Virus record (IMG/VR): IMGVR_UViG_3300008050_000270
Location: 1-25,949 of that record
Direction: 5' to 3' (one strand)
Length of the DNA stretch: 25,949 bases
Source: a virus
Below, in pieces: positions 9,299-15,807 of this stretch. The stretch's first letter is position 1, and each line of letters opens with the position of its first letter. Made by a program: the position numbers and the translations under genes. The notes beneath the pieces were generated by a model. It did no database searches. It saw only the letters and a program-made list of their open reading frames with translations, and was not told where the DNA came from.

Positions 9299-9310
9299 GA
9301 ACCAAAGCAT

Positions 9311-9316
9311 TGATAT
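9311..9316 (+). promoter_or_regulatory. GCATTGATAT promoter of predicted RNA
   Basis: AAAGCATTGATATAC, same class as the promoters at 5850, 11398, 14143, 25215 and the minus-strand one at 20012. It predicts a start at about 9340, where no ATG is present. Confidence 0.6.
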
Positions 9317-9339
9317 ACACCAACACCCTCGCATCAAAT

Positions 9340-9460
9340 ACCCAAGCGACTTGGGATGCGGAACGAGACCGCAAGTGGGAGAGTAATCCCTTAAACGGCC
9401 ACAACGAGTGGTCGGCCAACAAATGTATAGTCGAAGTGGCATCCCCCACCAATCCTTTTC
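9340..9460 (+). ncRNA. Predicted structured non-coding RNA (about 120 nt)
   Basis: The predicted transcript from the 9311-9316 promoter begins exactly with a perfect 6-bp hairpin (CCCAAG 9341-9346, CTTGGG 9350-9355). Then follow CGG/CCG (9359-9361 with 9369-9371), GGGA/TCCC (9377-9380 with 9387-9390) and CCAC/GTGG (9399-9402 with 9408-9411). A pyrimidine- and T-rich stretch at 9446-9466 may end it. No open frame starts near 9340: the first ATG gives 12 codons. A frame running 9295-9513 would have to start within the promoter. An alternative reading is a long structured 5' leader of the gene at 9521. This region (9299-9520) has no other gene. Confidence 0.5.
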
Positions 9461-9491
9461 CTTTACCCCACTATATCAATACCGGCGAGTT

Positions 9492-10296: not shown

Positions 10297-10850
10297 CCAA
10301 CCCACTATCTGTTGAGCATCTCCTGTTGGTTCGGAATCTCTATCGAGAATTGCGAGCCGACCGACCAGATGTTCTCGGTGGGTTGCCAAGCGGAACATCG
10401 TGGTTGCGCTGGCGGTATCTCCGTGAGGGAACAATCCGCCTACTGGCGCAGGTCAGATTCAAGGATGATGATTTCACCATCTCTCTCAATCGCTATTCAT
10501 TCGACAAGTATCACTTGATGGAGCCACTCCTGCTCAAAGGATTGATTCATCACGAACTGCTTCACATTGTATGTGGGAGCGAAGCAGGACATGGCCAGAT
10601 GTTCACCAAATTGGAATCAGGCTGGGAACAATTTGACGAATATCGCTATCAACGAGCGAAGTTCGTTCGAGCAATCGAGCGTATCGAGCGAGATAAGGGT
10701 CGACTGTTCAAGTATGAATGTCCAAAATGCCACAAAGTTCTGTTCAGAACTCGCCGGATGGCTCCCGAATCGGCTTGTCGGGATTGCTGCAAAGCGAATA
10801 ACGGTGGAGTCTGGTGTGAATCTTTTGTGTTGATAGAACGGAACGATTGA
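10269..10850 (+). CDS. SprT-like zinc metalloprotease with C-terminal zinc ribbon
   Basis: HELLH at residues 95-99 (in LIHHELLHIVCG) is the HExxH zinc site, and His108 in GHGQMF, eight residues further on, is a candidate third ligand. The C-terminal zinc ribbon has CPKC at 151-154 and CRDCC at 170-174. This combination is that of the SprT/Spartan family; the cellular members cleave proteins crosslinked to DNA. Viral versions are common in head-tail viruses with unknown substrates. At 193 aa the length is typical and complete. ATG 10269 has GAGGGTGA as ribosome-binding sequence within the end of the previous gene. A role in clearing proteins from viral DNA is inferred. Confidence 0.88.
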   Translation: MGTSRKSRLTNPLSVEHLLLVRNLYRELRADRPDVLGGLPSGTSWLRWRYLREGTIRLLAQVRFKDDDFTISLNRYSFDKYHLMEPLLLKGLIHHELLHIVCGSEAGHGQMFTKLESGWEQFDEYRYQRAKFVRAIERIERDKGRLFKYECPKCHKVLFRTRRMAPESACRDCCKANNGGVWCESFVLIERND

Positions 10851-12587: not shown

Positions 12588-14123
12588 ATGAGCGAGGGTG
12601 GTGGATTGACCCTCACGAGTCAACAGGCTCGTGAAATAGCCCTTTATCCTGACCGTTGGGCGCAATACTTCAGAACCATCGAAGGCAAGCCCTTCATGCT
12701 TCACGAACGACCATATCTCATCGACATCTATCGGCACTTCGGTGCGACTGAACGGAATGACATCACGAAGGTGATTGTTCTCAAATGTTCACGCAAGGTC
12801 GAAAAGACCGAGACCATCTGCAACCTGCTCTTGTATGGGTTATTGAACATTCCATACTTCAATGCCGTCTATACCGCACCAAGACAACCACAGGTGTCCA
12901 GATTCGTTGAAGAACGGTTCAATGGGGCTATGATGTCAAGCATCAACGGTGGATGCCTTCTCAAGCAACGCATCAAAGCATCCGTGAGCCACCAGACATT
13001 CGATGTCGGTGCAAAGTCGTTGAACCACTTCTATGCCTACTCGAACTGGGGCGATGCTCACGGTTTGCTCGGTATCGCCGCCGATATGTGTTGCATAGAT
13101 GAATATCAGGATTCCGACCCAGATGTTCTCCCAATGCTAATCGAGATGCTGACTCAATCGAACTTCAAAATTGTTCTCGTGAGTGGAACGGCTCGTGAGC
13201 AAGGCTCGGAGTTCTGGCGGCTCTGGGAGACCAGCACGAAGGGCGAGTGGGATGGTGAACAATGGGTGCATCAGCATGGCCACGACACACAGGTTGACCA
13301 CATCATTGGCTATCACATCACTCAACCAATGCACCCCGATGTGAGCGATGATGACATTGAACAGAAGCGTGGAACATACACACCTCGCCGATTTCAAAAT
13401 GAAGTTCTCGGTGAGTTCTTTGCTGGTTCGGCAAAACCCCTCACATTCGATGTGGCTTTGGGAGTTATCGACTCCGATATGTTTCCGACCGAGAGCGTGA
13501 AAATCCCAGAAGAATCGGTGATGGGAATTGATTGGGGATTGACAACGACAATTGTCATCATGAGCGCAGATGGCAAACGGATATTGAACGCACTTCAAGT
13601 CGAGGCTCGTGGCGATGGAGACTTAGATGAAGTCGCACGAGTCAAGGAACTCATTCTCCGATACAATTCTCGAAAGGTCGTTTGTGATATTGGCTACGGC
13701 GCACGACAAGTCAAGGAACTCCAGAAGGAGTTCGGCGAGCGAGTCTGCTCGTGCTATTACTCATCTCGGCCTATGACTCCATATGAGTTCAAGAAGCGAG
13801 ATAACAACCGCAATATCATCAACATGGCCATTGTCGACAGAACCACATACATCGAACGCACTTTGGAGAAAATCAAAAAACAGGAAATCTCTTTGCCGTT
13901 CAAGGACAGGGAACTGGAATGGGTTCTCCACGAATGGTGTGCCATCAATTCATCTGTTGAGGATGATATGAAAACGAGTCGAAAACGCCGGTCGCAAACC
14001 CTGACGAAGTATGGTCGAGATGGAGATGACCACGCTTTTCACGCTCTGCTGTATGCGACTATTGCGCTCGATATGCTTGACGAAGGTGGTGGGTTGCCGA
14101 CCATGAGAACCTTTGGTGCGTGA
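12588..14123 (+). CDS. terL: Large terminase subunit (DNA-packaging ATPase/nuclease)
   Basis: Pumps viral DNA into the prohead and cuts it. ATPase domain: a variant Walker A, CSRKVEKTE at residues 67-75, lacks the usual Gly-Lys-Thr but keeps Lys and Thr; Walker B ends with Asp171-Glu172 in CCIDEYQD; coupling motif SGTA at 199-202. Nuclease domain (RNase H-like): Asp315 in GIDWGL, Asp367 in VCDIGYG, and Asp480/Asp481 in DGDDHAF near the C-terminus, three acidic positions as expected. At 511 aa it is complete. The ATG at 12588 is preferred over an upstream TTG; GAATAGGG about 24 bases upstream is a weaker TATA match than elsewhere. A small terminase gene was not found next to it. Confidence 0.92.
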   Translation: MSEGGGLTLTSQQAREIALYPDRWAQYFRTIEGKPFMLHERPYLIDIYRHFGATERNDITKVIVLKCSRKVEKTETICNLLLYGLLNIPYFNAVYTAPRQPQVSRFVEERFNGAMMSSINGGCLLKQRIKASVSHQTFDVGAKSLNHFYAYSNWGDAHGLLGIAADMCCIDEYQDSDPDVLPMLIEMLTQSNFKIVLVSGTAREQGSEFWRLWETSTKGEWDGEQWVHQHGHDTQVDHIIGYHITQPMHPDVSDDDIEQKRGTYTPRRFQNEVLGEFFAGSAKPLTFDVALGVIDSDMFPTESVKIPEESVMGIDWGLTTTIVIMSADGKRILNALQVEARGDGDLDEVARVKELILRYNSRKVVCDIGYGARQVKELQKEFGERVCSCYYSSRPMTPYEFKKRDNNRNIINMAIVDRTTYIERTLEKIKKQEISLPFKDRELEWVLHEWCAINSSVEDDMKTSRKRRSQTLTKYGRDGDDHAFHALLYATIALDMLDEGGGLPTMRTFGA

Positions 14124-14142
14124 GAATTGAGAATCAAAACAT

Positions 14143-14148
14143 TGATAT
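14143..14148 (+). promoter_or_regulatory. ATTGATATAC promoter of predicted structured RNA
   Basis: AAAACATTGATATACTG just after the terminase stop; predicts transcription from about 14172, where no start codon occurs. Confidence 0.6.
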
Positions 14149-14171
14149 ACTGAACACCCCTCGTCTTGATT

Positions 14172-14365
14172 AGCAGAGAACCCCACTCTTAGCGGAGTGT
14201 GGCCCCTGACGCTCGCTTCGGCGGCATGAGGGCGGGGAGAGTTCTATGGTGTATTGGATGCGGGGTCGCTCCCCAACCATCAAATCGGGTCGGGGGTTCG
14301 CCGCCGATTCCCAAAGCCTCGCTTGGTCGGTTCTGCCGTCATGGTGAGAGATTGCACCTGCGCCT
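14172..14365 (+). ncRNA. Predicted structured non-coding RNA (about 190 nt)
   Basis: From the predicted start the sequence forms a set of nested stems. AGAAC (14177-14181) pairs with GTTCT (14241-14245), with CCC/GGG beside it, closing a multi-branch region that contains CACTC/GAGTG (14184-14188, 14195-14199) and a GC-rich hairpin. Then ATGGT/ACCAT (14246-14250, 14276-14280) encloses GGGG/CCCC (14262-14265, 14271-14274). Then AATCGG/CCGATT (14283-14288, 14304-14309). GC content is far above the flanks, and a pyrimidine-rich stretch at about 14359-14370 may end it. It lies between the terminase and a convergent PP-loop gene. A 33-codon frame from ATG 14246 is possible but would sit in the stems. 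It is not a tRNA: no cloverleaf with anticodon arm could be drawn. Confidence 0.55.
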
Positions 14366-14374
14366 TCTTATTCA

Positions 14375-15226
14375 CTAATCGAACCAAGCCGAGAAGCAAT
14401 CGCATGACATATCGGTGTTGAGTTCTTTGTATGAGAACTTCTTTCCAGCCTCAATCATCTCTCTCAAATCCGTCAATGACAATGGGTTGCCACCTCGACT
14501 CAATGCTGTGTGTGGCGACTTCAACAATTCTTTGGTGATGCGCTCTTGTTCTTCGTGATGAGCATACACATCTGGGAGAGTCTTGAGCAAGTGAGCAAAT
14601 TGACCCAACCCCGCCTTGACGCAGAACCCACCACAGTTATTGTGTGTAAATCCCAATTCATACAATCGGGGTGGGTCAATACCAGACGCTTTCACTTCAC
14701 GCATCAATTTGCGTTTGAATGGGGTCGCACCTTCTAACAATGGAAAATAGACAGGGAATGGTGCTTGCGAGGCTCGACCTCGTTCGATGCGACCGCAATC
14801 CTCGATGTTATCGAACCCCATAACGACTATTGCATTATCCGGTGTGAACTCATCTTTCATGGCGGCTCTCAACGGTTCTCGTTTGAACACTCGTGAACAC
14901 ATATCAGCACGACTATTTGGGATGAACTTTCGCTCCCTCGCCATTGACCACAAGTCCAGCGGTTCCCCGCTTTTTCCAATTATAACAAATGAGCGAATCG
15001 GCAAACCAAGTGATTTGGATGCTTCATCGTTGAACCGATACAGGTCGGCATCTTCTGTCTTAGTATCGGCGAACCACAACACCACTCGCTCTTTGCCGAA
15101 CTGGTCAACACAACGCCTTGCCGCTTCATAGGATGACAACCCACCTGACCACATGACAACAAATGTGAAATCATCCGAACTTGGAATCGGAATGTCGTCT
15201 CCTATTGGCCATGCTTTCACTCCCAT
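14375..15226 (-). CDS. PAPS-reductase/PP-loop ATPase-like protein, paralogue 1
   Basis: Residues 27-32, SGGLSS, form the PP-loop of the adenine-nucleotide alpha-hydrolase fold (usual form SGGxDS; the Asp is Ser here). VVLWFADTKTEDADLYRF follows, the typical second strand and substrate loop of PAPS-reductase-like proteins. Two cysteines near 200 (HNNCGGFCVK) and two more at the C-terminus (SCDC) could bind metal or a cluster. Family members activate a substrate with ATP; some act in sulfate reduction or in DNA phosphorothioation (DndC). The viral substrate is unknown. The ATG at 15226 has a TTTTATG box (15257-15251, minus strand) at leaderless spacing, so the upstream in-frame ATG at 15253 is rejected. 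Length 283 aa. Confidence 0.85.
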   Translation of the reverse strand: MGVKAWPIGDDIPIPSSDDFTFVVMWSGGLSSYEAARRCVDQFGKERVVLWFADTKTEDADLYRFNDEASKSLGLPIRSFVIIGKSGEPLDLWSMARERKFIPNSRADMCSRVFKREPLRAAMKDEFTPDNAIVVMGFDNIEDCGRIERGRASQAPFPVYFPLLEGATPFKRKLMREVKASGIDPPRLYELGFTHNNCGGFCVKAGLGQFAHLLKTLPDVYAHHEEQERITKELLKSPHTALSRGGNPLSLTDLREMIEAGKKFSYKELNTDMSCDCFSAWFD

Positions 15227-15250
15227 AACAATCCCGACAAACCCCAACAT

Positions 15251-15257
15251 CATAAAA
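15251..15257 (-). promoter_or_regulatory. TATA-like promoter for PP-loop gene (minus strand)
   Basis: TTTTATG on the minus strand, centred about 27.5 bases before the ATG at 15226. It is divergent from the 15295 promoter, with about 40 bases between them. Confidence 0.55.
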
Positions 15258-15323: not shown

Positions 15324-15533
15324 ATGGACATCGAGACCATCCTCACGCTTATCGGCGTTGCCGCAATCCCCACAGCCCTTTGGCTTCGTGAACGATACAA
15401 ACGAGTCATGGCCGATGGCACGATAACGATTGATGAAGTTATTGAAGAAGCGCAAGCAATTTCAAAGAAAGCCGAAGAAGTCAAAGAAGTGGTTGACGAG
15501 ATAATCACCGAGAGTGAATCTAATGCCGAATGA
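15324..15533 (+). CDS. Small single-pass membrane protein (69 aa)
   Basis: A hydrophobic N-terminal helix (ETILTLIGVAAIPTALWL, residues about 4-21) is followed by a basic stop (RERYKRVM) and an acidic amphipathic helix with heptad spacing (EEAQAISKKAEEVKEVVDEI). The topology with one N-terminal transmembrane segment is clear; the function is not. Next to a second small membrane protein, a holin-like or membrane-anchoring role is possible. Start set by the TGATAA promoter; the upstream alternative at 15294 overlaps it. Overlaps the next gene by 11 bases. Confidence 0.65.
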   Translation: MDIETILTLIGVAAIPTALWLRERYKRVMADGTITIDEVIEEAQAISKKAEEVKEVVDEIITESESNAE

Positions 15534-15807
15534 CACCGACCGTGATGCGGTTCACTTTCAATGGACCCAAGCCATTCATCGAGATTTGGCTAATCTTCGA
15601 GATAATCATCTGGCGCACATGAGCGCAGACATCGCCGAATTGAAGCACGATGTCAAAACCATCGAAGGAGAAGTGGCGGAACTCAAGGAGATTAAGAACG
15701 AAGCATTGTCGATTCTCCGCCGCTATTCAGGTCGCATCGTGCTTGGAATCCTCATCGGAATCGGTGCGGCTACTGGTGCGCCAATGGCCGTTGATGGGAT
15801 GATTTAA
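15523..15807 (+). CDS. Coiled-coil membrane protein, holin-like (94 aa)
   Basis: A helical coiled-coil region (LKHDVKTIEGEVAELKEI, residues about 38-60) precedes a C-terminal transmembrane helix rich in glycine (IVLGILIGIGAATGAPMAV). N-terminal coil plus C-terminal membrane helix and under 100 aa is the layout of XhlA-type holin-associated proteins, but no family-level identity is claimed. ATG 15523 lies within the end of the preceding membrane-protein gene, so the pair is translationally coupled. Its TAA stop shares a base with the ATG of the next gene. Confidence 0.6.
   Translation: MPNDTDRDAVHFQWTQAIHRDLANLRDNHLAHMSADIAELKHDVKTIEGEVAELKEIKNEALSILRRYSGRIVLGILIGIGAATGAPMAVDGMI

Follow-up and report, generated by a model that had tools for sequence, protein, structure and literature searches.

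The locus considered here raises the question of whether the 251-bp gap between two convergent viral genes, viz. those for the terminase large subunit (terL) and a PAPS-reductase-like protein, contains a gene whose product is an RNA. The stretch of DNA analyzed (the window) is the 25,949-base virus record IMGVR_UViG_3300008050_000270, and an 81,530-base IMG/VR contig (locus L001; whole record G001) matches it at 99.97% across the length of the window. Information regarding the virus, the putative promoter, the fold of the predicted RNA and other elements of this kind is discussed below.

The source virus and the surroundings of the candidate RNA

Profile matches indicate that the window virus encodes a terminase, portal, prohead protease and capsid, and contig G001 also shows matches to a family B polymerase (PolB), primase domains (below or near the Pfam cut-offs), RFC-like ATPase domains and CobT. 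The PolB, primase-like and RFC-like matches point to replication proteins of archaeal type. CobT and PAPS reductase are reported for magroviruses in the available portions of PMC10160649, and the gene content found here agrees with the description of magroviruses given there for the genes compared (PolB, a portal/protease/terminase/capsid module, CobT and PAPS reductase). No relative of terL was found in genome_contigs or in 292 genomes from the order of a Poseidoniales genome. We consider this to be an uncultured marine virus whose host is probably archaeal and, judging from its gene content, probably a tailed, magrovirus-like virus of Poseidoniales archaea. Collagen-like coding repeats are present at both ends of the G001 contig (about 1–250 of the window), and the contig may be complete and broken within such a repeat. 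The genes that surround the gap are as follows:

12588–14123, plus strand: terL, the upstream neighbour (phrog_675, E 2.4e-61 with the longer start)
14375–15253, minus strand: PAPS-reductase-like gene, which converges with terL and faces the predicted RNA (phrog_424, E 6.4e-34)
15514–15807, plus strand: conserved small gene of the terL–portal interval (tblastn match in 37 of 46 loci, L001 included)

Against Pfam, terL gives a weak GpA_ATPase match below the cut-off, and the reductase-like gene has no match. We have found terL in 63 viral loci, two of which (L001 and L014) are 100% identical. The sequence after terL in L002–L012 (terL identity 84–89%) is unlike by eye, and the element under study was not seen 3′ of terL in the 41 other loci inspected out of the 63, some contigs among them ending soon after terL. 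A blastn search with 14124–14380 against 65 loci returned this virus alone, together with short matches to its own promoter at 9309, and a search with 14172–14375 against 209 loci matched only the same virus. The terL–portal interval was surveyed in 46 loci with matches to both proteins: the portal follows terL in 40 of them, with an interval of 779 to 3501 bp, and the reductase-like gene was matched in one (L001). A separate search with the reductase-like gene found no locus but that of the same virus. Six relatives (L043, L047, L049, L051, L055 and L057) have the portal before terL, in a rearranged structural module. Since neither the predicted RNA nor the reductase-like gene was found in the relatives, the two look like an insert between terL and the conserved small gene, which speaks against a part in packaging.

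A promoter without a start codon and the sequence that follows it

The elements identified in and around the gap are listed below.

14133–14149, plus strand: archaeal-type promoter, with a BRE-like ATCAAAAC at 14133–14140 and a TATA element ATTGATATA at 14141–14149
14160–14163, plus strand: CTCG element, separated by 10 nt from the TATA element and common to other promoters of the set
14172–14365, plus strand: predicted noncoding transcript, beginning about 22 nt beyond the TATA element, GC-rich and with its largest frame scored as noncoding
14199–14378, plus strand: open frame with a CxxC motif, 59 codons from GTG (50 from the ATG at 14226), judged not coding

The sequence CATTGATATA occupies 14140–14149, and the parts of 14133–14149 are what we take, from general knowledge, to be BRE and TATA. 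A TATA-like element about 22 nt before an ATG is the layout of an archaeal leaderless promoter. At four places in the window (8404, 10846, 11396 and 25213) an element like ATTGATATA is followed by ATG after 22–23 nt, and a TATA-like hexamer whose first base lies 28–31 nt before the ATG is found in 27 genes of G001 and G004. The same leaderless spacing, about 22 nt from TATA, places the predicted start at 14172, where the only frame is a TTG frame of 8 codons. The CTCG element recurs at equal spacing at 9309 and 25213 of the window, at three places in G017, and in G003, G004 and G018. A promoter matrix was built from 26 leaderless genes, its full version including an upstream element. Of the 410,750 positions of G001, G004 and G017, 42 reach the target's own score, taken as the cut-off, on the BRE/TATA part of this matrix, and 24 of these 42 have a frame of 45 or more codons where one is expected. 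The full matrix scores the target low, at 7.6 (training range 1.7–30.1). The sequence-only reading had described a promoter of the window's strong class pointing to a start near 14172 that lacks a start codon, and the BRE/TATA rank, the spacing and the lone short TTG frame bear this out.

The GC-rich character that had been ascribed to the sequence after the start also holds, the GC content over the 194 nt of 14172–14365 being 0.624 vs. a genome mean of 0.494, a value reached by 0.3% of windows of the genome. This GC island ends near the facing gene's stop codon, on the 3′ side of the predicted transcript, and the other equally GC-high islands of the 81.5-kb contig appear on inspection to be coding repeats, collagen-like ones among them. 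The transcript could instead be a leadered message for a small protein of 50–59 aa, beginning at 14199 or 14226 and carrying the CxxC and a later Cys/His pair. An open frame for it does exist, but a codon model trained on 20 window frames gives it −0.215 from GTG or −0.264 from ATG, values lower than any of the 259 in-frame control windows (mean 0.215, minimum −0.132); of 1295 out-of-frame windows, 166 do no better than the GTG version. No relative of this frame was found in phages, the only one among viral contigs is in the same virus, and we regard the small protein as improbable. The promoter, the want of a useful start codon, the GC island and the poor coding score together make a noncoding transcript likely, and a noncoding RNA with its own promoter at 14172–14365, as predicted from these features, is thus supported indirectly.

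Predicted folds of this RNA and of other start-less elements

The fold of the predicted RNA is less favourable to the earlier proposal. The minimum free energy of the plus strand (−73.4 kcal/mol) is no better than that of shuffled controls (−78.3 ± 4.5 kcal/mol; z +1.07), 176 of 200 shuffles being as good, and the energy comparison therefore goes against a candidate structured RNA. Local plus-strand windows of 70 and 110 nt give z values from −1.3 to +1.5, and the first 80 nt of the target give +0.33 and +0.44. Local folds of the minus strand are better than those of the plus strand (z down to −2.3), and no promoter was found on the minus strand of the target region. Pair probabilities of the stems were averaged in five contexts with different 3′ ends, and a single stem is steady:

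14184–14199, plus strand: CACTC/GAGTG stem, mean pair probability 0.59–0.95 in the five contexts

The stem AGAAC/GTTCT has a mean pair probability of 0–0.75 (0.53 in one longer context, 0–0.06 in three others), and the junction that it closes is present in the minimum-energy fold of the first 74 nt (z +0.6). The corresponding values are 0.02–0.09 for ATGGT/ACCAT and 0.13–0.32 for the inner GGGG/CCCC, and forcing nine stems (those named earlier and some added) costs about 15 kcal/mol. Hence, the arms of the proposed branched, multi-stem fold exist as letters but most of them are improbable in the ensemble, and the label "structured" for 14172–14365 is not supported by these fold models.

A second promoter of this kind is present in the window:

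9309–9420, plus strand: promoter without a start codon, and a predicted RNA that begins near 9340 and has four hairpins in tandem

This promoter is 85% identical to that of the target over 34 nt. The fold of 9341–9420 has a z of −4.05 and the first 80 nt of the RNA have z values of −3.4 and −3.5, and by these modelled energies 9309–9420 is a better structured-RNA candidate than the target. A promoter-like element is also seen on the opposite strand at 9480. Fold scores were obtained for 19 positions in three genomes, viz. 18 start-less positions from the BRE/TATA scan and the target, of which 12 were set aside as having a frame of at least 60 codons starting within about 110 nt or as lying inside a gene; this exclusion cut the set after the table had been seen, and two of the kept positions have a frame at 136–137. 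The 7 kept start-less promoters, the target included, have GC contents of 0.55–0.62 over 80 nt, and 4 of the 7 have z values below −3, the target (z +0.44) being the weakest fold among them; 24 leaderless coding controls have a mean z of +0.17. A separate fold set of 11 transcripts was chosen partly by eye. Several members of the class have frames at their start, among them an ATG frame of 38 codons in G018 and a TTG frame of 64 codons in G017a. The target shares with the class the BRE/TATA promoter and its spacing, the absence of a coding frame at the start and a raised GC content, but its 5′ part is not more stable than shuffles. It thus resembles the class in promoter and composition, as judged from sequence, and is unlike it in sequence or fold. 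Elsewhere, L078:5983–5690 (minus strand) combines a promoter, a TTG frame of 64 codons and a series of hairpins that includes a piece like a tRNA T-arm, and a small frame after the hairpin series at L078:5120–5641 (minus strand) is HNH-like by eye, with no Pfam match.

Two small families of putative RNAs were modelled from related viruses:

Family X (model R1), at L201:10885–10960, L015:5359–5432, L207:388–460 and L209:1833–1905: two conserved hairpins with a CCGAAG linker
Family Y (model R2), at L082:1428–1517 (minus strand), L004:10742–10831 and L092:9417–9506: branched, with an invariant core

A TATA element lies 18 nt 5′ of the aligned block in all four sequences of family X, two of which are nearly alike. 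In one pair both bases are changed, a level that 403 of 500 shuffles also attain, and the support for family X is therefore mainly its conservation and position. Its core is found in 8 stretches of viral_contigs, and model R1 had no match in 44 host genomes in a search run without a positive control. Family Y comprises three sequences, two of them nearly identical, with 100% of cells paired; three pairs are changed on both sides, a number reached by 14 of 500 shuffles, and these pairing changes appear supportive without being proof. In G003 family Y lies in the terL–portal interval, about 50 bases before the portal, and in G004 it adjoins the protease, where its promoter has a TTG frame of 42 codons and about 90 nt separate that start from the beginning of its core. 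The target, searched with the filters off, reached at best 0.7 bits (R1) and 2.7 bits (R2) on the plus strand, i.e., no match, and with no homologue in other viruses among the 209 loci it was rejected as a member of either family. Model R1 also matches the window's own virus near a predicted start (G001 39799–39732, minus strand, 15.8 bits); this was discounted as a family X homologue, since L042 and L006 have similar scores and a GTG frame of 97 codons opens there.

Exchange of such elements is suggested by a comparison of G018 (L084) with two copies of the G003 type (L108 and L190). Their protease proteins are 99% identical and the DNA directly upstream is identical, whereas the promoter-side stretch before the protease (L084:94–366, L190 upstream of 4001, L108 upstream of 3359) is mostly unlike. 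From these alignments it looks as if an accessory element before the protease has been replaced, in stretches that also carry short frames at the start, so that an RNA there is not certain.

Competing explanations and relation to known systems

The reading that we favour, with a probability of about 0.5, is that an insert in a magrovirus-like virus, probably of Poseidoniales, carries an accessory noncoding RNA gene at 14172–14365. Host RNA polymerase would produce from 14172 an untranslated RNA of roughly 200 nt; its transcription, an end near 14365–14375 and its action as RNA are what we infer. The RNA would have no part in packaging and would act in trans, perhaps as a regulator or decoy in a virus–host or virus–virus contest, as suggested by its place in an insert and by the class of elements that it resembles. 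Of the two functions offered in the sequence-only reading, a regulatory or decoy RNA is, on present sequence comparisons, the better half. Counting against an accessory RNA gene are a fold no better than shuffles and the weakest of the 7 kept, the failure of R1 and R2 to match it, the lack of a homologue outside this virus, the low full-matrix score and the better local folds of the minus strand. The main rival, which we hold to be rather unlikely, is that transcription from the promoter runs into the 3′ end of the reductase-like gene and the product acts as an antisense or convergent regulator, through pairing with the mRNA or collision of polymerases. The transcript is indeed aimed at the 3′ end of 14375–15253, no run of 4 or more T occurs in 14172–14700, and there is a precedent in the haloarchaeal virus HFTV1, for which the available text reports 23 antisense transcripts, 12 of them inside operons of capsid and packaging genes or at the ends of such operons (PMC12542753); the end of the GC island near the gene boundary, however, points to the intergenic stretch itself. 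Slightly less likely again is that a chance or decayed promoter stands in a convergent gap and yields no functional RNA. The fold z near +1, the low full-matrix score and the fact that no conservation was seen are as expected of this, against which stand the BRE/TATA rank, the similar promoter at 9309 and the GC island.

The proposed resemblance to phi29 packaging RNA, which we take to be Rfam RF00044, is not supported. The position of the element beside terL is the one point in its favour. In the loci of relatives examined, searches recovered it neither next to terL nor at any other place; it has no Rfam match and neighbours a gene of the terminase large-subunit families; we consider a packaging RNA very improbable. 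At the gathering level Rfam gave no match for the target, and at E values up to 5 the sole match in the window is an L19-leader (10366–10401), below its threshold and outside the target. A tRNA or tmRNA was ruled out by search, and a DNA-level phage search gave no lead. A host-derived RNA was also rejected: 7 of the 292 genomes have matches (E up to 0.01) of 19–35 nt, where about 3 are expected by chance, two of these lie in one homologous gene, and the five loci read are all inside open frames. Long matches to the rest of the virus can likewise be set aside, the longest exact one being 13 nt and one other being 16 nt with a mismatch.

A broader possibility is that marine archaeal viruses carry rapidly exchanged noncoding RNA genes with promoters of their own, that a genome has several of these, and that they occupy variable intervals within the structural module, with the target as an orphan member of a set that serves host takeover or counter-defence. 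This reading draws on the retention of the protease at 99% in G018 and G003 while the promoter-driven stretch was replaced; the discounted R1 match in G001 lowered its odds slightly, and we hold it to be rather unlikely. A full-text literature search for magrovirus and noncoding RNA found no paper, and the target, if transcribed, would be an orphan viral noncoding RNA in an ocean virus group for which no literature match of this kind was found. The promoter rule, in which TATA is followed after about 22 nt by an ATG or by nothing, provides a simple means of listing candidate RNA genes in viruses of this sort, and families X and Y offer transcript searches something definite to look for.

Among known systems, phi29 packaging RNA is similar in that it adjoins a packaging ATPase gene and that a branched fold can be drawn for the target; it differs in that the ATPase family here is unlike the gp16 kind and the target, which Rfam does not match, is not kept with the terminase in relatives and has an unsupported fold. 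Family X shares with the target a TATA element, a GC-rich sequence and a virus of the same group, but its two hairpins and CCGAAG linker were not found in the target. Family Y is likewise noncoding-looking and, in G003, lies in the terL–portal interval, but it has a branched core and R2 does not match the target. The antisense RNAs of HFTV1 also belong to an archaeal tailed virus and start at the ends of structural operons; they are based on RNA-seq whereas the target is predicted from sequence, and the available text of that account gives no GC island or separate RNA gene (PMC12542753). Lastly, Tan1 is described in the available portions of PMC5069720 as an abundant 229-nt noncoding RNA of Marine Group II archaea. 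Although it is a host RNA and the target a viral one, and the two are likened by description and not by sequence, they are similar in size, both are orphan noncoding RNAs, and Tan1 comes from the presumed host group of this virus (PMC5069720).
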